A stretch of 64,000 nucleotides of DNA from Candidatus Krumholzibacteriota bacterium (GTDB lineage: Bacteria; Krumholzibacteriota; Krumholzibacteriia; Krumholzibacteriales; Krumholzibacteriaceae): the NCBI GenBank assembly GCA_016932415.1, contig JAFGCX010000030.1, forward strand, positions 4,498-68,497, written 5' to 3'. Both the position numbers and the translations under genes were made by a program. Shown in pieces: positions 46,918-57,244 of the stretch. Each line of letters opens with the position of its first letter. The first letter of the stretch is position 1. The notes under the pieces were generated by a model that saw only the letters and a list, made by a program, of their open reading frames with translations, was not told where the DNA came from and did not search any database.

Positions 46918-47118
46918 TCAACCGCCATGCGCGAGGTGGAAGACTGTCACTGACTCTCCGTCCTCGATCAGGTGCGTCTCGTAGTCGTCTTCGGGGATAA
47001 GCCTGTCGTTTACAGTCACAGTGATAAGAGCGTAATCATATCCCATCTCATCGAGAATATCCTGTACGGTCATGCCAGGTCTCCATTTGACCCTGTCTCT
47101 TTGATTGACTGTTATCAT
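46918..47118 (-). CDS. ThiS/MoaD-like sulfur carrier protein
   Basis: 66 residues with a beta-grasp pattern and the C-terminal Gly-Gly (VTVFHLAHGG) that is adenylated and thiocarboxylated. It lies four bases after a ThiF-like activating enzyme and in the same operon as a tungsten/molybdenum oxidoreductase. No thiamine gene is near and no moaD is seen in the cofactor cluster, so a role as MoaD (sulfur donor for molybdopterin) is plausible; ThiS in thiamine synthesis is the alternative. Confidence 0.85.
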   Translation of the reverse strand: MITVNQRDRVKWRPGMTVQDILDEMGYDYALITVTVNDRLIPEDDYETHLIEDGESVTVFHLAHGG

Positions 47119-47122
47119 CTTA

Positions 47123-47761
47123 TCATACCTCGCCGCGCGCGATTATCTCGATAGCGAGATTGGCCTGCATGTTGGCGGCAAGGGCTACCCTTGCCGAGCA
47201 TAACCCGATATCGGAGCCGGTCGTCTCATCGCCGATAATATGTATCTTTCCAGAAGACCTGATGACGATGGAAGAAGAATCGCCTATTCCCGATATGCCG
47301 CTCGCGCAGATCAGGTGCCTCTCTGGAAATAACCCGCACCACGTCTCTATCAACCAGTGTTTGCTCTCGGCGTCGTCGAACGCCTCTATAAGAAGATCCG
47401 CGCCGGAGAATATCTCGCCTACTGAAGCGGGAGTGATCCTTGCCTGGTGAGATATTATCGAGATCTCAGGGTTGATCTCCCTCAGGTGAGCGGAAAGCGC
47501 TTCGACCTTTGGCTTTCCCAGATCTGAGCGGAAATAGTATTGCCTGTTGAGATTTGAAAGTTCCACGACGTCGAAATCGGCAATGATCAGCTTTCCCGCC
47601 CCAGCCCTGGCGAGGGCTATAGCGGCGTTCGATCCGAGCCCTCCGCACCCTGCTATTCCGACGCAGCTCTCAAGCATCTTTTCGGTCGAGCCTGGCACGT
47701 TACGCTCGAAGACGGGAGATATCTTTTTTCTTTCCACGCGTTTCTCCGGCTCAGGAGCCAT
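47123..47761 (-). CDS. ThiF-family (E1-like) adenylyltransferase, short form
   Basis: 212 residues. VGIAGCGGLGSNAAIALARAG is the ATP-binding motif (in short GCGGLGSN), and FDVVELSNLNRQ is the Arg/Asp finger of the E1 family. It is shorter than MoeB/ThiF with no Zn-binding CxxC pairs, which matches the thiF family-2 type. It should adenylate the C-terminal Gly of the ThiS-like protein next to it. The tungsten-enzyme operon suggests it serves pterin cofactor synthesis. Confidence 0.87.
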   Translation of the reverse strand: MAPEPEKRVERKKISPVFERNVPGSTEKMLESCVGIAGCGGLGSNAAIALARAGAGKLIIADFDVVELSNLNRQYYFRSDLGKPKVEALSAHLREINPEISIISHQARITPASVGEIFSGADLLIEAFDDAESKHWLIETWCGLFPERHLICASGISGIGDSSSIVIRSSGKIHIIGDETTGSDIGLCSARVALAANMQANLAIEIIARGEV

Positions 47762-47799: not shown

Positions 47800-49800
47800 T
47801 CATTCCTGGTCGTCCTTTATGATCGCGACAAGCTCGGGAAGATCGATTCCGAGCTCCTTGAGCCTTGCGATCGTCGGTACGCCGTTATTCGTCCAGCCCC
47901 TGCGTTTGTACGCCGCGTCGACGACCTTGTTGTACTGATCCATCCGGAATTTTCTTGTTATCTCCATCTTTTCTTCAGTGCTCTTGCCCGACGGATCGAT
48001 GCCGATGATCTCTTTCATCTGCCTGTCGTAATACTTGTCCGCCCGCGATTCGTACTCTTCCTTCGTCACAGGTCCGACAGCTCTGTACGGAGGCATGTCG
48101 TCCTTTCGAGTACCGAATCCGAGCATCCTGATCATTATCCTCTCGAGGTTATGTACCCTGGCTGATTGAGCAAGCATCTTTTCCTCATCGAGTGCGATGC
48201 CGGTCATTCCCTCGTGGAATTTGAAGAAATCCTCGACGTGGCCGGGGACCTTCGCCGCTTCCTGCGGTTTGTACTTCTTGTTATCGAGCGGTACAATATC
48301 GTTCCAGAGAAGCTTGCAGAGGCCGTGCAGGCCGAACCAGGTCCGCCACAGCGGATAATAATAGAGGGCTTCCGCCTTGTCCTCGAAGGTGGGGATCTGG
48401 TTGTTGACCATATCCATGAAGATCAGCCATGCTTCGTCATGCTGAGGACCTTTTACCGCCATTGTATAACCGGCCTGCTGCGCGAGGGATTCCTTGCAGA
48501 CATACTCGGAATATTCAAGCCCCTTGACCTCCATCCCTATATCCTGCAGGAACGCAGCGTCTGCGCCGAGTTCCCTGATCCATTTTTCTTTCAACCACCG
48601 GATACCCATCCCGACCTCAACGCCGAACCCTTCACCTCGGGCCATCTCGTGGAGGCACTCGAGGACCTCGTCCTTCGCCCCGAACTTCAGCTCCTTGCCG
48701 CCTGTCTCTTTCGTCGTGATCACGCCGTTCTCAAACGACTCCATCACGAAAGCCATGCAGGTGCCGACCGAGATCGTATCTACGCCGTACGTGTCGCAAT
48801 AAAAGTTGAATTCGGCCACGAAATCGGCATCGAAACATCCCATGTTGGCCCCGGCCGCAGCCGTTTCGTATTCAGGGCCGTCCACCATCACGACATCGCC
48901 TTTGTACGGCCCAGTCTTCAGCACGAAGCCGTCGATCGTCTTGGCGCACGCCATCGTGCATCCTTTCCAGCATCCGTCAGGAAAATCCTGCGTAAAGTAT
49001 CTGGCTTTGAGAATGCTCGAACCGATCTTGTACGTCTCCTTATGAGAACCATACTTGTAATTGAGGACGGGGAGGAGGTCGTATTTATCCATGACATCGA
49101 CGATGTTCGCCGTACCGACCTGCCTCATCCTGCACTGGTCCTTGTCGAGAGTCGCCATCTCGGCGGTTATCTTCATGCCGTAATCCCTGATCATCTTAGG
49201 ATCGACCGGATGGTTCAGGTCGTCTATTATCTCGATGGCGCCGGTAGGACAGGTATAAGCGCATGATGTACAGCCGATGCAGTGAGGATCGACTTCACCG
49301 AACGGCATCGCGATATGACGGTCTATGCCGCGGCCGGCAAAATCGATTATCCGTTCCATCGCGAATTCGTCGCACCCGCGCACGCAGCGGCCGCAAAGGA
49401 CGCATGCTTTCGGATTCTCGTCGGTGAGGTCGCTTTTGTATTTCTTGCTGTCGGTTGCGCCGCACATCTTTGCCAGGCCCTGGATGACCGGGACGTTGGG
49501 CCAGCGCCCGAGATACATTTCGGCGAGGTTCCTTCTGTGAGTTTTGACTCTTTCGGAAGCTGTCTCGACTCTGATAGCAGTCCGGACGGGATAGTTGCAC
49601 GATGTGACCATCCTCTTTTTTCCATCCTCTTCGATCTCGACGACGCAAAGCCTGCAGACTCCGGCGGGCGTAAGGTCCTTGTGGTGACAGAGGGTAGGCA
49701 CCTTGATCCCGCTTTCCCTGAGGATTTCGAGCAGGAAGGCATCTTTTTTTACTTCGATATCTTTTCCGTCGATATTGATATTGATCTTTGTCGTAGCCAT
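47800..49800 (-). CDS. NuoG/HydA-like Fe-S module fused to aldehyde:ferredoxin oxidoreductase domains 2-3
   Basis: 666 residues. Residues 1-75 are a [2Fe-2S] plant-ferredoxin-like domain (Cys38, 49, 52, 68), as in NuoG/HydA. Residues 130-190 carry two [4Fe-4S] motifs, CVLCGRCVRGC and CIGCTSCAYTC. From ~210 to ~640 it is the AFOR_C part of AOR: cluster ligands Cys277, 281 and 285 (GCWKGCTMAC) with Cys495 (GLHGLCKLL), Glu310 in PEYETAAAGA, and His454 in KGPQHDEAW, which match active-site residues of the tungsten enzyme. AOR domain 1 is missing here but present at the start of the upstream gene. The ATG overlaps that gene's TAA. Confidence 0.93.
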   Translation of the reverse strand: MATTKININIDGKDIEVKKDAFLLEILRESGIKVPTLCHHKDLTPAGVCRLCVVEIEEDGKKRMVTSCNYPVRTAIRVETASERVKTHRRNLAEMYLGRWPNVPVIQGLAKMCGATDSKKYKSDLTDENPKACVLCGRCVRGCDEFAMERIIDFAGRGIDRHIAMPFGEVDPHCIGCTSCAYTCPTGAIEIIDDLNHPVDPKMIRDYGMKITAEMATLDKDQCRMRQVGTANIVDVMDKYDLLPVLNYKYGSHKETYKIGSSILKARYFTQDFPDGCWKGCTMACAKTIDGFVLKTGPYKGDVVMVDGPEYETAAAGANMGCFDADFVAEFNFYCDTYGVDTISVGTCMAFVMESFENGVITTKETGGKELKFGAKDEVLECLHEMARGEGFGVEVGMGIRWLKEKWIRELGADAAFLQDIGMEVKGLEYSEYVCKESLAQQAGYTMAVKGPQHDEAWLIFMDMVNNQIPTFEDKAEALYYYPLWRTWFGLHGLCKLLWNDIVPLDNKKYKPQEAAKVPGHVEDFFKFHEGMTGIALDEEKMLAQSARVHNLERIMIRMLGFGTRKDDMPPYRAVGPVTKEEYESRADKYYDRQMKEIIGIDPSGKSTEEKMEITRKFRMDQYNKVVDAAYKRRGWTNNGVPTIARLKELGIDLPELVAIIKDDQE

Positions 49801-52800
49801 TATATCACCTCCACCGCGTCGAAGTTGCAGCTTTCATAACAGATCCCGCATTTAATGCATTTATCGCCGTCGATATGATGCGTTTTTTTCTTCTCGCCCG
49901 TTATGGCGTCGACCGGGCAGTTGATCGCGCAGAGGGTGCAACCCGTGCAATTCTGCGCGTCGATGCTGTACTTGATGAGCGCCTTGCATCTGCCACCGGC
50001 GCATTTCTTTTCGTCGATATGCTGCTCGTATTCTTCCCTGAAATATTCAAGGGAGCTGAGCACCGGATTTGGAGCAGAGCCGCCGAGCTGGCAGAGGCTT
50101 GTGTCCCGCACCGTCCGGCACAATTCTTCAAGAGCTTCGATATCACCCGTCTTTCCTTCGCCGCCGCATATTCGCGTCAGCAGGATCTTCATATGGTGTA
50201 GTCCTTCGCGGCAGGCGGTGCATTTTCCGCAGGATTCATCGGCGAGAAATGCGATTGAATCCCTCGCGACATCGATGATACATGTTCTGTCGTCCATCAC
50301 GCTCAGAACACCGGACCCGATCATCGATCCCGCCTCCATCAGAGAATCGAAACCGACAGGCAGGTCGAGTTTTTCCGCGGGAATGATCCCCCCGGAAGGT
50401 CCTCCAGTCTGAACAGCCTTGAAAACCCGGCCGGCGGGGACTCCTCCTCCTATATCCTCGATGATTTCGCGAAGAGTCGTGCCCATCGGGACCTCAACGA
50501 GGCCGGTGTTATTTACAGCGCCGGTGAGGGAGAAGACTTTCGTTCCGGAAGATCCGTCCCAAGCCGATCTGCTTACATCGCCCATGCCGATCGAGGAGAA
50601 CCAGGAGGCTCCGCGATCTATTATCACCGGAACAGTCGCCCATGTCTCGACGTTGTTAAGGATCGTCGGTTTGCCCCTGAAGCCCGATTCGAAGTTGTGC
50701 AGATATTTCGGCCTCGGTTCGCCCGCTTTCCCCGACATCGAAGCGAAAATAGCGCTCGATTCGCCGCTGACGAAGGCGCCCGCCCCGCGATGGATATTGA
50801 TATCGAAACAGAGGTCGCTTCCGAGAATGTTATCGCCGATAAGCCCGTAATCGACGCACTGGTCGATCGCTTTCCGCAGCCTCTCGATGGCGAGGGGGTA
50901 TTCTTTCCTCGTATATATATATCCCGCGGTCGCTCCCGTCGCAAAGGCGCCTATCAACATTCCTTCGATCACCGAGTGGGGATCGCCCTCTATGATGCTT
51001 CTGTCAGAGAAAGCTCCAGGGCCTCCTTCATCCGCGTTACAGACGAGATATAACTCTTCATCCTTTTCCGCCGCCGCCTTGACCGCTGATTCCCATTTGA
51101 TGCCTGTGGGAAATCCGCCGCCGCCCCGGCCCCTTATGCCGGAAGCGATGATTTCTTTAATGACATCCTCTTTTTTCCCGCCCGCCAGGACTTTTCTCAA
51201 AGCGGCGTATCCTCCGCGGGCGATATAATCGTCGATCTGTTCAGGATCGACGAGTCCGCGGTTCCTCAGGGCGACGAGCTGCTGTTTGCTGAAGAATCCA
51301 ATATCTTCGATCTTCGGACAAGCCTTGCCCGAGACAGGGTCGGTGTAGAGAAGCCTTTCGACAGTCTTGCCTTCGACAAGGGCGTCGATGATATCCCCGG
51401 CATCCTTAAGGCCTGCCTTCTGGTAGAATATGCCGTGAGGCTGCACGAGGATGATCGGTCCATTGGCGCATATCCCATGACATCCCGTGCCTGTCACGAG
51501 ATAATCCTTTTCCAGTCCTTTTTCCTTAATGACTTCTACAAGCCTGTCGCGGATGGCGGGGCCTTTCGCCGATACGCATCCGGTCCCAGTGCAGACCATA
51601 AGGATCCCCTTGTAACCGGAGCTTTCTTTTTTCTTTCTGGCGCTGATCCTGTCGAGGTCCTCAGGGGTTATCCGGATGGCGGTCATGTCAGAGTCTTCCC
51701 TGGCTGCAGGTGATCCTTTTTTGCCCTTTTCGACATTCTTAAGAAGCTTCGCTACGTCTTTAGCCTGCACGTTGCCGTATAGTTCTTCGCCTATCCTCAC
51801 CACCGGGGCGATGCTGCATGCTCCGAGGCAGGCCGCCTCCTCAAGGCTGTATTTCATATCACCGGTCGTTTCTCCAGCCTTGATGCCAAGGGCGCGCTCG
51901 AACGACTCGAGTACTTTCGCTGAACCTTTCACGTGGCAGGCCGTGCCCATGCAGACCTGGACGATCGTCTTGCCTTTCGGTTCAAGGCTGAATGCTTTGT
52001 AGAATGTGGCGATATGATAGAGGTGCGCTTTCTGCCTCCCCGTCTTTTTACATATTTCATCGATGGCAGTCTTCGAGACGTATCGGAAACGATCCTGTAT
52101 GTCCTGCATCATCTCGACGACATATTCAGGGTCGCTCTGCCACTTCTCAATGATCCCGATTATCGCGTCGAGATCCTTTTTGGAAGTCTGAACGGCGATC
52201 TTCTTTGGGGTGACATCTTTCGCGGCCTTGCTTTCTTCGATCCTCCAGGCGGGAGTTATCTGCCTGTTCTTAAGAACGAGCGCCTTGATATTCTTGTCCC
52301 TGAAGACCGTTCCGATACCGCCTCTTCCCGCCTGCTTGATTCTGGGAAGAGCCCTTCGCCAATCGAAGAAGGAGAAGTTCAGCACTCCCATGTGAGTATG
52401 CTGCGCTCCGCGGCCAGCGGTGACGCAGGCGATATTTCTCATGTCGAGCTCATCGTCGGCGTACATCTCGGTCAATTCTTCAGCAAGGAGATGCGAATCT
52501 ATGCTTTCTTCCGGAGCTGTCTCTATCGATACCCTGCCTGTGACGGCATCGATGACTACTATCACATCTTCGGCCGCTTTGCCGGTGACGACAAGAGCAT
52601 CGAATCCCGAGAACTTAAGATACGGCCCGAACCAGCCGCCGACGTTGCAGTCCATCACAGATTTGGTAAGGGGGGAGAGGGAGGTGACAATCGTTTTCCC
52701 TGAACCGGGAAAAGATGTAGTCCCTCCGAGAGGCCCCTGGGAGAAACAGATCGGGTTGTTATTGTCGTTCCATTTCGTCTCTGCCGTTATCTCCTGGAAC

Positions 52801-53003
52801 ATAAGCCAGAGGTCGAATCCCTTTCCACCGGTCCAGAGTTTCTTCATCTGGTCTGATATTGGAAGGATGGTCACTTCGTTCTTATCGAGATCGACCCTCA
52901 GAGCCCTGCTGGCGTATCCTCTATCAAGATCGATCACTTCAAATGTAAACTCGCAAAGCGACTTATGCGCCTTTTTCATCTTCAAAAGATCTTTATCCGG
53001 CAT
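49800..53003 (-). CDS. AOR domain 1 fused to NuoE, NuoF and ferredoxin modules (NADH diaphorase)
   Basis: 1067 residues; AGGAGG precedes ATG. Residues 20-248 are AFOR_N (GYASRALRVDLD, LWTGGKGFDLWL, QAGRGGIGTVFRDKNIKA). Residues ~278-425 are NuoE-like with [2Fe-2S] Cys351, 356, 392, 396. A second thioredoxin-like [2Fe-2S] domain (Cys471, 476, 508, 512) starts the HydB-type NuoF. The FMN site is RGRGGGGFPTG, the NADH site NADEGGPGAFSDR, and the [4Fe-4S] SCGKCTACREG with Cys971. Two C-terminal [4Fe-4S] motifs end it (Cys1019-1029 and 1049-1059). It should accept electrons from the aldehyde-oxidising site and pass them to NAD+. Confidence 0.93.
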   Translation of the reverse strand: MPDKDLLKMKKAHKSLCEFTFEVIDLDRGYASRALRVDLDKNEVTILPISDQMKKLWTGGKGFDLWLMFQEITAETKWNDNNNPICFSQGPLGGTTSFPGSGKTIVTSLSPLTKSVMDCNVGGWFGPYLKFSGFDALVVTGKAAEDVIVVIDAVTGRVSIETAPEESIDSHLLAEELTEMYADDELDMRNIACVTAGRGAQHTHMGVLNFSFFDWRRALPRIKQAGRGGIGTVFRDKNIKALVLKNRQITPAWRIEESKAAKDVTPKKIAVQTSKKDLDAIIGIIEKWQSDPEYVVEMMQDIQDRFRYVSKTAIDEICKKTGRQKAHLYHIATFYKAFSLEPKGKTIVQVCMGTACHVKGSAKVLESFERALGIKAGETTGDMKYSLEEAACLGACSIAPVVRIGEELYGNVQAKDVAKLLKNVEKGKKGSPAAREDSDMTAIRITPEDLDRISARKKKESSGYKGILMVCTGTGCVSAKGPAIRDRLVEVIKEKGLEKDYLVTGTGCHGICANGPIILVQPHGIFYQKAGLKDAGDIIDALVEGKTVERLLYTDPVSGKACPKIEDIGFFSKQQLVALRNRGLVDPEQIDDYIARGGYAALRKVLAGGKKEDVIKEIIASGIRGRGGGGFPTGIKWESAVKAAAEKDEELYLVCNADEGGPGAFSDRSIIEGDPHSVIEGMLIGAFATGATAGYIYTRKEYPLAIERLRKAIDQCVDYGLIGDNILGSDLCFDINIHRGAGAFVSGESSAIFASMSGKAGEPRPKYLHNFESGFRGKPTILNNVETWATVPVIIDRGASWFSSIGMGDVSRSAWDGSSGTKVFSLTGAVNNTGLVEVPMGTTLREIIEDIGGGVPAGRVFKAVQTGGPSGGIIPAEKLDLPVGFDSLMEAGSMIGSGVLSVMDDRTCIIDVARDSIAFLADESCGKCTACREGLHHMKILLTRICGGEGKTGDIEALEELCRTVRDTSLCQLGGSAPNPVLSSLEYFREEYEQHIDEKKCAGGRCKALIKYSIDAQNCTGCTLCAINCPVDAITGEKKKTHHIDGDKCIKCGICYESCNFDAVEVI

Positions 53004-53339: not shown

Positions 53340-54374
53340 ATGATCAATGTCATTTCGGGAAAATCCCGCGAGAAAAAAGGCGTCATCTTTCCGCCTTTTG
53401 CAGTTGGAAAGGCGATATTCAGGGGGATACTTCTCTTTTCGTTGATCCTGATCATTTCCTCCTGTACGAGGACAGGTGGCACAAAAGAGAAAAAACTGAC
53501 GATCTTTCACGCCGGTTCCCTTTCTGTCCCGTTCAAGAGGATCGCCGAGGCATATCAGGCCGAACATCCAGGCGTGAAGATATTGATCGAATCGGCGGGA
53601 AGCAGGGTCTGCGCGAGAAAGATAAGCGATCTTGGCCGCAGATGCGATATCATGGCTTCGGCCGACTATACGGTGATCGATGACCTTCTCATACCTGACC
53701 ATGCCACGTGGAGCATAAAATTCGCAAGCAACGAAATGGTGATAGCTTTCCACGAGGATTCGAAAAGATCGGTCGAGATCGATTCTGAAAACTGGCTCGA
53801 TATCCTCCTCGATCCCGATGTCGCTTACGGCAGGTCCGATCCAGATTCAGACCCCTGCGGTTACAGGACTGTTTTAACAGTCAGGCTGGCCGAGGCTTTT
53901 TACGGCAGGGAAGGATTCGCGAGAGATCTTCTGGCAAAGGATCAGAGGTATATCAGGCCGAAGGAGGTCGATCTTCTTGCCCTTCTGGAAGCATCTGCGA
54001 TCGATTACCTTTTCATCTACAGATCGGTCGCCAGCCAGCATGGCCTGAAGTATCTCATGCTGCCATTCGAGATAAACCTCAGGGAGGCAGCGCTTGCGGA
54101 ACACTATAAAACAGTCTCGGTCGAGATAACCGGAAAAGAACCAGGCAGCTCGATCACTAAATACGGAGCGCCGATGATCTACGGCGTGACGATCCCTCTG
54201 AACGCTCCGGAGACCGACCTTGCCATCACGTTCCTCGAATTCCTCCTCGATCCTGAAAAGGGACTTGCTATCATGGAGGAATGCGGACAACCGTCGGTCG
54301 TTCCTTCGCCGGCGGAGACGTACCGCTTTATCCCCGACCGGTTGAAACGGTTCGCCACAGAACCTGGGACCTGA
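53340..54374 (+). CDS. wtpA: Tungstate/molybdate ABC transporter, substrate-binding lipoprotein (WtpA type)
   Basis: 344 residues. Lipobox ISSC (Cys42) after a membrane-like signal. LTIFHAGSLSVPFKRI and the later GRSDPDSDPCGYRT are typical of the WtpA family, which binds tungstate and molybdate with six oxygen ligands; ModA proteins lack the DPCGYR motif. The oxyanion would be collected in the periplasm. A ModE-box-like site and a TTGACA promoter precede it, and permease and ATPase genes follow. Confidence 0.9.
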   Translation: MINVISGKSREKKGVIFPPFAVGKAIFRGILLFSLILIISSCTRTGGTKEKKLTIFHAGSLSVPFKRIAEAYQAEHPGVKILIESAGSRVCARKISDLGRRCDIMASADYTVIDDLLIPDHATWSIKFASNEMVIAFHEDSKRSVEIDSENWLDILLDPDVAYGRSDPDSDPCGYRTVLTVRLAEAFYGREGFARDLLAKDQRYIRPKEVDLLALLEASAIDYLFIYRSVASQHGLKYLMLPFEINLREAALAEHYKTVSVEITGKEPGSSITKYGAPMIYGVTIPLNAPETDLAITFLEFLLDPEKGLAIMEECGQPSVVPSPAETYRFIPDRLKRFATEPGT

Positions 54375-54379
54375 GAGGC

Positions 54380-55216
54380 ATGGCGAAGTCACGAAAGGAT
54401 CAAATGGGGCAGGTGAAAAAGGGGATCAGAAAAACGCGGACGGTAGAGCCGCTCAACCTGCTGTTCGCCGCGCTCGGCGGATTGATCCTGCTTTTTATAA
54501 TTGCTCCTCTTGCCGGTCTCTTTCTTAACGTGACGCCGGAAGAGCTTGCCGATACGGCGCGTGAGGGTGAGGTGAGGACGAGCATATGGCTTACCCTTGC
54601 CACATCGATGGGGGCTACTCTCATCTTTTCTATAGCTTCGGTCCCGATGGCCTATCTTCTCGCCCGAAAGCGTTTTCCCCTGAAGGAACTGGTGAACGGG
54701 ATCATCGATATCCCGGTCGTCATCCCGCATTCAGCCGCCGGGATAGCCCTGCTCGGAGTAATATCGAGGAACACTCCCCTCGGTTCTCTTGGCGAGAAAA
54801 CCGGCATCCCATTCGTTGGCGGATACGCGGGGATAATGATAGCGATGGCTTTTGTAAGCGTACCATATCTCGTAAACGCGGCGCGCGATGGCTTCTCCGC
54901 AGTTCCGGTGGAGCTTGAAAAAGCGGCGTTGAATCTCGGAGCTTCACCTTTCCGAGTCTTCCGTACTATCTCGATGCCGCTCGCCTGGAGATCGATTCTC
55001 TCCGGGCTGATACTGATGTGGGCGAGAGGGATGAGCGAATTCGGAGCGGTTCTTGTGATCGCCTATCATCCCATGATAACGCCGGTATTGATATATGAAC
55101 GGTTCGGCGCCTTTGGATTGAAATACGCAAGGCCCGTATCCGTTCTTTTCATCACTATATGTCTCGTCTTCTTCATCGCGATGCGGATGATCGCAAGGAG
55201 CAGGGATGATGCTTGA
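54380..55216 (+). CDS. wtpB: Tungstate/molybdate ABC permease (WtpB type)
   Basis: About 278 residues from ATG 54380 (ATG 54404 has AAGGA four bases upstream and is as likely). The longer frame reaches back into wtpA and is not used. The permease fold has five to six membrane spans and the ATPase-docking EAA motif PVELEKAALNLGASPFRVFRTISMPL, in short EKAALNLGASPF. It pairs with WtpA and WtpC for oxyanion import across the inner membrane. Confidence 0.9.
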   Translation: MAKSRKDQMGQVKKGIRKTRTVEPLNLLFAALGGLILLFIIAPLAGLFLNVTPEELADTAREGEVRTSIWLTLATSMGATLIFSIASVPMAYLLARKRFPLKELVNGIIDIPVVIPHSAAGIALLGVISRNTPLGSLGEKTGIPFVGGYAGIMIAMAFVSVPYLVNAARDGFSAVPVELEKAALNLGASPFRVFRTISMPLAWRSILSGLILMWARGMSEFGAVLVIAYHPMITPVLIYERFGAFGLKYARPVSVLFITICLVFFIAMRMIARSRDDA

Positions 55217-56264
55217 AGTAAGGGGGCTGTCTAAAAAACTCGGAGATTTTCAGCTCGACGATATCTCTTTCACAGTCGAGACGGGGGAATATTTCGTCCT
55301 TCTCGGAGCTTCGGGAACGGGAAAGACAGTCCTGCTGGAGACCCTCACCGGGATCATCCGCGCCGACCGAGGCACTATCACGCATGGCGGCATCGATATC
55401 ACAGATGAGAAGATCCAGAAGAGGAAGATCGCGATTGTGTTCCAGGACCAGGCTCTCTTTCCGCATATGTCGGTCAGGCAGAACCTCGCCTACAGCCTTC
55501 GCGCGAGGGGGATAAAAGGTGCTGCTGAAGCGGAAAGGATCAGTCAACTCGCCCGATCGATGGAGATCGAACCACTCCTCGATCGCAGGCCCGGGGCCCT
55601 TTCCGGCGGAGAGGCGCAAAGGGTCGCTCTGGCGAGAGCGCTCGCTTCCGAACCGGATTGCATTCTTCTCGACGAACCGCTTTCATCGCTCGACAGCAAC
55701 ACGCGCAAGAAGATAAGGGCGATCCTAAGACGGTTGAACCGAAATGGAATAACGATCATCCATGTTACCCATGATTACGAAGAAGCGATCTCGCTCGCCG
55801 TCAGGATCGGGGTGATGGAACGCGGGTCGATAGTCCAGGTAGACACCCCGGAAAATATCCTGCGCCATCCGAAATCTGAATTCGTAGCCGGTTTCGTCGG
55901 GATAAAGAACTTTTTCAGGGGAAAGATCAGGCGCGGCGCGAGCGGCGCTCAGCCAGAATTCATAACGGGCGGAGCGAACTTTACCGTCTCTACGGATATC
56001 GCCGGGGGGGACGCTTTCGCGATAATCAGGAGCGAGGATATAGTCCTGACCAGTGACAAGCCTTCCCATAACGATATGAATATCCTCAGTGGCAGAGTGA
56101 CAGATATAAGCAGGGTGCGGTCCGGTATCGAGATCGTCGTTGATTCTGACGTGGAGATATCGGCTGTCATACCGGCTCAACGGTTCGATGATGGAGCGAT
56201 AGGGATCGGGAGCGACCTTTATCTTTCCTTCGGAGCGGACCAGGTAAGGATAATGGAGGTCTAG
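55206..56264 (+). CDS. wtpC: Tungstate/molybdate ABC ATPase (WtpC type) with TOBE domain
   Basis: 352 residues, overlapping wtpB by 11 bases. Walker A GASGTGKT (34-41), signature LSGGEAQRVALARAL, Walker B CILLDEPLSSLD and H-loop HVTHDYEEA are all present. The C-terminal ~120 residues form a TOBE-like domain that senses oxyanion in ModC/WtpC relatives and could give trans-inhibition. It ends at the TAGTG overlap with the HTH gene. Confidence 0.93.
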   Translation: MMLEVRGLSKKLGDFQLDDISFTVETGEYFVLLGASGTGKTVLLETLTGIIRADRGTITHGGIDITDEKIQKRKIAIVFQDQALFPHMSVRQNLAYSLRARGIKGAAEAERISQLARSMEIEPLLDRRPGALSGGEAQRVALARALASEPDCILLDEPLSSLDSNTRKKIRAILRRLNRNGITIIHVTHDYEEAISLAVRIGVMERGSIVQVDTPENILRHPKSEFVAGFVGIKNFFRGKIRRGASGAQPEFITGGANFTVSTDIAGGDAFAIIRSEDIVLTSDKPSHNDMNILSGRVTDISRVRSGIEIVVDSDVEISAVIPAQRFDDGAIGIGSDLYLSFGADQVRIMEV

Positions 56265-56629
56265 TGTCGATGGAACCCCGGGCGAAACTCTTCCTTTACG
56301 ATTCTGAAAGGGGAGGGCTTTTCGGCGATGGGAGGTACGAGCTGCTCGACGCGGTGCGCGAGCACGGTTCGCTCCAGGAGGCGGCGAGAAGGCTCGGAAG
56401 AGGATATCGCAAGGCCTGGGAAGATATAAGAAAGGCGGAGAAGGCGCTTGGCCGAAGGCTTGTGGACCGCTCCAGGGGAGGGCGCGATGGGGGATCTTCG
56501 CGGTTGACTGTTTTCGGGACAGAGCTTCTGGACGCGTGGAAAAGATACAGGAGGGCGGTCGACGGCGATATAGAAAACGCTTATGAAAGATTTCTCAGAA
56601 AACTCGTAGAAGGAGAATATGATGAGTGA
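56264..56629 (+). CDS. ModE-type winged-helix regulator without molbindin domain
   Basis: 121 residues from GTG 56264, overlapping the wtpC stop; GGAGG is five bases upstream. The HTH core LLDAVREHGSLQEAARRLGRGYRKAWEDI is the ModE N-terminal domain (in short GSLQEAARRLG). The C-terminal molybdate-binding Mop/TOBE repeat of E. coli ModE is absent, so it may sense oxyanion indirectly or need a partner. It probably acts on the palindrome at 53205 and regulates uptake and the tungsten enzyme. Confidence 0.85.
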   Translation: MSMEPRAKLFLYDSERGGLFGDGRYELLDAVREHGSLQEAARRLGRGYRKAWEDIRKAEKALGRRLVDRSRGGRDGGSSRLTVFGTELLDAWKRYRRAVDGDIENAYERFLRKLVEGEYDE

Positions 56630-56810
56630 GGAAGAACTAGGCAGGGTGATCGATGCGGCGGTCGAGACGAAAGATGGAAGGAAAAAGCTCTCATGCGCGA
56701 AAGCTTTCATAATCGCCGACGATTACGGGATCAGGCTCAGCGATATAAGCAGGTATTGCAACAGGAATGATATAAGGATCTCCAATTGCCAGCTCGGGTG
56801 TTTTAAATGA
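56619..56810 (+). CDS. Small Cys-containing protein of the molybdenum/tungsten cofactor operon
   Basis: 63 residues, overlapping the HTH gene by 11 bases and the next gene by four. It has three Cys (KLSCAK, YCNR, NCQLGC), the last pair near the end in SNCQLGCFK. A helical, acidic start is followed by DISRYCNRNDIRI. I have a sense that similar short sequences occur fused or near MobB-like proteins in anaerobes but cannot confirm. Coding is supported by tight overlaps at both ends. Function unknown. Confidence 0.65.
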   Translation: MMSEEELGRVIDAAVETKDGRKKLSCAKAFIIADDYGIRLSDISRYCNRNDIRISNCQLGCFK

Positions 56811-57244
56811 AGGTGATAGTGATATCAGGTTCGCATTCGAACGTGGGAAAGACAGGACTGGCACTGAAGATCATATCGATCCTCGAAGACGCAGTTCATG
56901 TCAAGATAGGTCATGGGACGCGCAAGGAGGGACTTGGAAACCGGTTCTATCCCGAGGGGACAGCGTTAGAAACTGTCGCCGCCGAAAACAACGGCCGCCG
57001 GTACCTCGTGATCGAGAGCAACAGGATACTGCGCGAGATAGATCCCGACCTGGCGATCTTTCTTGCCGGCGGCGAGGATAAACCGACGGCGAAAGAAGCG
57101 AGGAAGAAGGCCGATATAATCCGGGGAAAGGGTCTCAGAGGCGAAGAGGTCGACAGGATAAGCGAATCGCTTGGAGTCGATCGGAAGGTCGCGCTGGAGA
57201 TCATAAGACTCGCAGGATCTTTCGAAGAGGAACATGGAAAATGA
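56807..57244 (+). CDS. MobB-like P-loop NTPase of the cofactor operon
   Basis: 145 residues. IVISGSHSNVGKTGLALKI is the P-loop (GSHSNVGKT, residues 8-16). LVIESNRILREIDPDLAIFLAGG corresponds to the 'ESN.L' part of MobB-type GTPases. The C-terminal third is helical. MobB helps attach GMP to molybdopterin; with moeA downstream the role fits, but no mobA lies in the window. AOR-type enzymes use a non-nucleotide bis-pterin, so its role here is open. Confidence 0.8.
   Translation: MKVIVISGSHSNVGKTGLALKIISILEDAVHVKIGHGTRKEGLGNRFYPEGTALETVAAENNGRRYLVIESNRILREIDPDLAIFLAGGEDKPTAKEARKKADIIRGKGLRGEEVDRISESLGVDRKVALEIIRLAGSFEEEHGK

Follow-up and report, generated by a model that had tools for sequence, protein, structure and literature searches.

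Aldehyde oxidoreductases (AORs) are single-chain tungsten enzymes that hold two pterins between their domains. In the published WOR classification, WorL is defined by the presence of both InterPro domains. The closest described systems are the class IV, or Wor-Bfu, enzymes (Wor-Bfu of A. mobile, WOR1 WorABCSL, PDB 9mqx; E. limosum WOR1), which are encoded by five separate genes in the order CBASL or SLCBA, with WorL as one intact chain and WorS as a separate ferredoxin (PMC13328260, PMC9304861). In the class II WorLS enzymes, which are ferredoxin-linked WORs, the AOR is a single chain and the ferredoxin has a gene of its own. The literature searched, which excluded subscription papers, contained no account of a split AOR.

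In the window, the whole 64,000-nucleotide stretch of a Candidatus Krumholzibacteriota contig analyzed here, an AOR is divided between two genes that overlap by one base (TAATG). Their coordinates, strand and reading frames agree with the original prediction, which had described an AOR frame interrupted by an NADH-diaphorase cassette, and the Pfam matches to both AOR domains are significant (Table 1). The same search found no AFOR_C in the gene 1 product (P0002) and no AFOR_N in the gene 2 product (P0001). Further Pfam matches were Complex1_51K (NuoF, 1.8e-39), SLBB, NADH_4Fe-4S and Fer4 in gene 1, and Fer2_4 at residues 4-82 of gene 2. The BfuB domain comprises an N-terminal [2Fe-2S] region, an FMN/NADH site, an N3-type [4Fe-4S] site and a C-terminal 2x[4Fe-4S] region, and Cys351, Cys356, Cys392 and Cys396 of the BfuC domain are near-invariant in an alignment with relatives. 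We consider it probable that the two genes encode an electron-bifurcating, Bfu-type tungsten AOR in which WorL is permanently divided and the W-bispterin site is built from two chains.

Table 1 Features of the split AOR locus and its surroundings in the window
Feature	Position	Strand	Evidence
ThiS-type sulfur carrier, Gly-Gly end, same operon	46918..47118	-	TIGR01683 45.7 bits, cut-off 37.45
ThiF-family adenylyltransferase, same operon	47123..47761	-	exceeds NCBIfam cut-offs NF006395, TIGR02354
Gene 2 (P0001)	47800..49800	-	BfuA-AFOR_C fusion, 666 aa
AFOR_C = AOR domains 2-3, gene 2 residues 210-652	47845..49173	-	PF01314 2.3e-86
BfuA/WorA-like module, [2Fe-2S] + two [4Fe-4S], gene 2 residues 4-190	49231..49791	-	PF13510 + Fer4
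Gene 1 (P0002)	49800..53003	-	AFOR_N-BfuC-BfuB fusion, 1067 aa
BfuB/HydB/NuoF domain, gene 1 residues 464-1064	49812..51614	-	683 bits to HydB 7t2r_B
BfuC/NuoE/HydC-like [2Fe-2S] thioredoxin-fold domain, gene 1 residues 284-424	51732..52154	-	PF01257 (2Fe-2S_thioredx) 1.9e-50
AFOR_N = AOR domain 1, gene 1 residues 33-245	52269..52907	-	PF02730 1.7e-45
WtpA-WtpB-WtpC tungstate importer, divergent, upstream	53340..56264	+	WtpA TIGR03730 303 bits, cut-off 243
ModE-type DNA-binding regulator	56264..56629	+	TIGR00637 1.7e-19, under cut-off

In profile alignments, AFOR_N matches residues 3-211 of the P. furiosus AOR (1AOR; 3.7e-55) and AFOR_C matches from residue 240 onwards. AFOR_C carries the AOR cluster site and the catalytic Thr, Glu, Tyr and His: Thr243, Glu313, Tyr427 and His448 (PfAOR numbering), named as conserved in aldehyde-oxidising WORs (PMC13328260), are found unchanged in each of the 13 split AFOR_C sequences compared, and the four AOR cluster cysteines are invariant in the split proteins as well. 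The halves are complementary and keep the expected ligands, which supports the claim that the AOR is complete once they are joined. The cluster motif reads CX3CX3C...C (CWxGCxxxC) in the window and in all aligned split relatives, whereas CX2CX3C is usual; the CX3C first spacing also occurs in three intact relatives that were inspected. The criteria of the AOR/WOR (WorL) family (both domains, active-site residues, cluster cysteines) are therefore met, but on two chains. Since WorL is defined by both domains, we infer that the split form may escape classification. Among AlphaFold2 single-chain models, that of the gene 2 product (pTM 0.74) matched AmWorL (9mqx_D) best in Foldseek, and also AmWorA (9mqx_A), while that of the gene 1 product (pTM 0.59) matched bifurcating HydB/WorB chains, with 8a6t_B (1.5e-55) and 9mqx_B (1e-54) among its top matches.

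The genome of the window contains a second AOR, which is complete (590 aa; G000:C10:136316-138061). Such a gene had been named in advance as a possible refutation that would turn the halves into unrelated paralogous domains; it lies in a clade distant from the split one, however, and so does not make them unrelated. Pairing of the split proteins with this AOR was rejected on the same two counts, its completeness and its distant clade. In two incomplete genomes (G093 and G094), no AFOR_N or AFOR_C was found besides the split ones. A complete AOR elsewhere in the genome, together with the strong divergence of the split subfamily, would also suit halves that are degenerate leftovers, retained for a structural or docking role and no longer forming a functional pterin site. 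We regard this as very improbable, because the split subfamily shows no variation at its active-site and cluster residues, each half is conserved across phyla, and tungsten-import and sulfur-carrier genes accompany the split AOR.

The accompanying genes are arranged on either side of the pair (Table 1). ThiF and ThiS follow gene 2 in that order on the same strand, and homologues of each adjoin 16 split-AOR loci. On the other side, WtpB and WtpC are best matches but remain under their cut-offs, and only WtpA exceeds a curated one. That the metal is W rather than Mo is inferred indirectly, from the adjacent WtpABC. A 145-aa ORF adjoining the Wtp genes (56807-57244, plus strand) has a P-loop-like start (GSHSNVGKTG) and is MobB-like by eye, with no Pfam or NCBIfam match. 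The operon contains no separate WorS gene and no extra catalytic subunit.

The insert is an electron-input block, as had been proposed, but it is not a plain NADH diaphorase: its content corresponds to the whole ferredoxin/NAD BfuABC core. All cluster cysteines of HydB (7t2r_B) align with cysteines of P0002 that are conserved in aligned relatives, and at the level of these predicted ligands the Bfu family criterion of a BfuBC core with six clusters (B1-B5, C1), FMN and an NADH site is satisfied. The BfuA part has 9mqx_A, the BfuA/WorA of A. mobile WOR1, as its best PDB match (2.6e-36). It contains only [2Fe-2S] and two [4Fe-4S] motifs, and the NuoG-type His/Cys ligands are missing, as they are in 9mqx_A. 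The domain order first read from the DNA is supported by Pfam, with one correction: the part labelled NuoG/HydA-like lacks the His-ligated NuoG/HydA cluster. The motif tally is one Fe-S cluster in BfuC, four to five in BfuB, three in BfuA and one in the AOR, or 9-10 in all, close to the figure of up to nine put forward earlier.

We infer that the insert is a full electron-bifurcating core, and bifurcation itself is argued from predicted cluster content only. The C-terminal 2x[4Fe-4S], the C1001/C1006 pair and the N-terminal [2Fe-2S] are kept by the window protein and 13 of 13 aligned relatives, and clusters B2-B5 are lacking in non-bifurcating homologues (PMC9304861). This retention counts against a two-chain tungsten aldehyde:NAD+ oxidoreductase without bifurcation, in which the NuoEF part just hands electrons to NAD+ and the ferredoxin-like clusters are a mere wire or a relic, a reading that we find distinctly unlikely. 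It does have some backing: direct NAD+ reduction by an AOR, via a different subunit, is known from A. aromaticum (PMC13328260), and an NAD-only form seems viable within the split group itself. Two loci (L045:10001-12361, plus strand; L168:8896-11280, minus strand) carry an in-frame shortened gene 1 that lacks the equivalents of P0002 residues ~347-573 and everything after ~1003. Lost with these are the BfuC cluster region, the N-terminal [2Fe-2S] domain of BfuB and the C-terminal clusters; AFOR_N, part of NuoE and the FMN/N3 core are kept in one frame. These proteins look like NAD-only derivatives and, being without most of the bifurcation clusters, indicate that bifurcation need not extend to all members.

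When genome contigs were scanned with gene 1, the protein or parts of it turned up at many loci. The arrangement recurs across numerous bacterial phyla and in two genomes of archaea; at least 34 loci keep the parts in the same order, as four, three or two genes, and in every case AFOR_N is separated from AFOR_C at the same interdomain site. The four-gene form (AFOR_N / BfuC / BfuB / BfuA-AFOR_C) occurs in some Cloacimonadota, Armatimonadota, Aegiribacteria and one Thermoplasmata chromosome; the three-gene form (AFOR_N-BfuC / BfuB / BfuA-AFOR_C) in CSSED10-310, Fermentibacteria and other Cloacimonadota; and the two-gene form in Syntrophomonadaceae, others, and the phylum of the window (including Krumholzibacteriota locus L005), where 17 of 80 genomes carry the split enzyme. 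Only the oddness of the layout could suggest an assembly or annotation artefact, namely a chimera or a frameshift of a normal AOR beside a hyd operon. The same architecture, looked for in other genomes, recurs in dozens of independent assemblies, in all three gene configurations and in one chromosome-level record (CP070751, L023); this refutes the chimera explanation and leaves it practically no probability. No joining of AFOR_N to AFOR_C, change of order or BfuB-BfuA fusion was seen in the split operons parsed from ORFs. An apparent single-polypeptide fusion of all parts, a 1783-aa frame in one genome (G015, L061/L072), was discarded as a long upstream-open frame; the real genes there are the usual two. 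Separately, one two-gene locus (L139:8399-11122, minus strand) has an unusually diverged gene 1 of 907 aa, whose BfuB part is ~40% identical and forms a long branch in the BfuB tree.

Searches of Cloacimonadota and Thermoplasmatota with gene 2 yielded many matches to the AFOR_C part only, lying inside frames of 700-800 aa. The loci sampled from these (13 Cloacimonadota and 15 Thermoplasmatota loci) encode intact AORs of the same subfamily, ~50% identical to the window halves in AFOR_N and 51-60% in AFOR_C. Only 15-22 residues separate the AFOR_N and AFOR_C matches in these proteins. AFOR_N thus runs straight into AFOR_C in the intact relatives, and the cassette sits exactly at that boundary, so the inference that an AOR frame has been interrupted by an electron-input block is supported by uninterrupted homologues. 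In the sampled Cloacimonadota, a small ferredoxin lies directly upstream of the intact AOR gene; that of locus L124 has 16 Cys, like WorS. No Bfu genes adjoin the intact AORs in the sampled loci. The Cloacimonadota search, which scored just the top candidates of each genome, revealed no genome with an intact form alongside a split one, as would suit alternative versions of a single enzyme. The uncharacterized intact subfamily (710-800 aa; e.g., L124:7267-9399) is itself large, is present in many Thermoplasmatota genomes and is remote from all solved AORs.

Against canonical AORs, each half falls in one remote clade with long stems (stem branches 2.2-2.8). The N-half and C-half trees match, and the halves move together even in the archaeal cases: with intact relatives added, the bacterial split enzymes group together (96), while the Thermoplasmata enzyme L023 has its two halves inside one group of archaeal intact forms and L166 has its two inside another (99-100). 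This shared AOR lineage of the two halves in each enzyme is good evidence for their working as one unit. A single split clade, implying one origin of the split, was not rejected when Cloacimonadota supplied the only intact forms (p 0.525) but was rejected after those of Thermoplasmatota were included (p 1e-85); the archaeal pull is present in each half analyzed separately. The BfuB parts of L023 and L166 nevertheless group in the BfuB tree with those of other AOR cassettes and are separated from HydB-type proteins (99). With one split clade rejected and the same pull in both halves, we favor transfer of the cassette into resident genes over the alternative of repeated cassette loss. In L166 (G310:C47), the first ~165 columns of AFOR_C, beside the cassette, are bacterial-split-like (8 vs 4 diagnostic sites), while the remainder is archaeal (27 vs 3; Fisher p 0.0005). 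This mosaic was spotted after looking and is only a lead; it would fit cassette transfer into a resident intact AOR via recombination in the flanking AOR sequence.

The enzyme probably arose when a BfuCBA cassette entered a two-subunit WorLS enzyme at the junction of AFOR_N and AFOR_C, with later gene fusions reducing four genes to three and then two. Because four-gene forms exist, the separation of the AOR halves probably predates these fusions. We further suggest, with somewhat less than even confidence, that BfuCBA is an insertable module which, at one WorLS interdomain site, converted a ferredoxin-only enzyme into a bifurcating enzyme with a two-chain site and was later recombined into archaeal intact AORs.

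Based on these data, we propose a plausible scheme for the split enzyme, in which chain assembly, electron route, direction and aldehyde activity are all inferred. AFOR_N would ride on the BfuC-BfuB chain and AFOR_C on the BfuA chain, and the two chains would form a heterodimer, or a higher assembly, with the W-bispterin between AFOR_N of one and AFOR_C of the other. The two electrons of aldehyde oxidation would pass from W to the AFOR_C [4Fe-4S] cluster, and onwards via the three clusters (two [4Fe-4S], one [2Fe-2S]) of the fused BfuA part, which might thereby do the job of the separate WorS ferredoxin of the intact relatives, to the BfuBC core. There, FMN and the clusters may split the electrons between NAD+ and ferredoxin, and the reverse direction is possible. 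Bifurcation would permit oxidation at low aldehyde and high acid, as has been argued for A. mobile WOR1 (PMC13328260, PMC9304861). The Bfu-linked enzyme could instead be an acid reductase drawing on ferredoxin and NADH, or perform other WOR chemistry on a non-aldehyde substrate, as BamB does. Bfu enzymes are reversible, the WOR relative BamB is a benzoyl-CoA reductase, and the split subfamily, on its long stems, is remote from characterized AORs; yet the enzyme keeps the Glu/His/Tyr/Thr set characteristic of aldehyde-oxidising WORs, and BamB ranks near the bottom of the PDB matches, so that we judge this alternative unlikely but of real weight.

An AOR with its domains on separate polypeptides in many phyla suggests that the W-pterin site can assemble from two chains, and the intact sister enzymes give the 'before' picture of the split. 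With its bifurcation core wired to the catalytic subunit, the enzyme makes a compact model for studying Bfu electron routing, for which L045 and L168 would be naturally occurring variants that have lost bifurcation. The published WOR classifications rely on an intact WorL and a WorS, and we infer that split enzymes may have been overlooked.

The window enzyme belongs to the same AOR subfamily as the class II WorLS enzymes and the intact relatives, some of these operons also containing ThiF/ThiS, and differs in being split. With class IV WOR it has in common the AOR fold and the BfuABC core, its BfuA part being closest to 9mqx_A, and NAD and ferredoxin sites are implied. The class IV definition of five subunits with intact WorL and WorS is nevertheless not met: WorL is in two pieces, one fused to BfuC-B and the other to BfuA, and there is no WorS. 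The class II benzoyl-CoA reductase BamB-I likewise links an AOR-like subunit, BamB, to a BfuABC-like BamIHG, but BamB is intact, extra HdrA-like subunits are present, and the sequence match to the window halves is weak. Type 1 Bfu enzymes (FeFe-HydABC, Nfn-Bfu; PMC9304861) also carry a catalytic domain on the BfuA C-terminus. In these, BfuA bears the whole domain; in the window it bears AFOR_C only, with AFOR_N on the BfuC-B chain, and the Type 1 criterion fails. The known Wor-Bfu enzymes are listed as Type 2, with extra subunits (PMC9304861). The window enzyme meets the Type 2 criterion of a BfuA without the A3 and A5 clusters but not that of a third-substrate site on separate subunits feeding BfuA, since its halves are fused to BfuA and BfuC-B; it is neither a Type 1 nor a Type 2 Bfu enzyme as defined.
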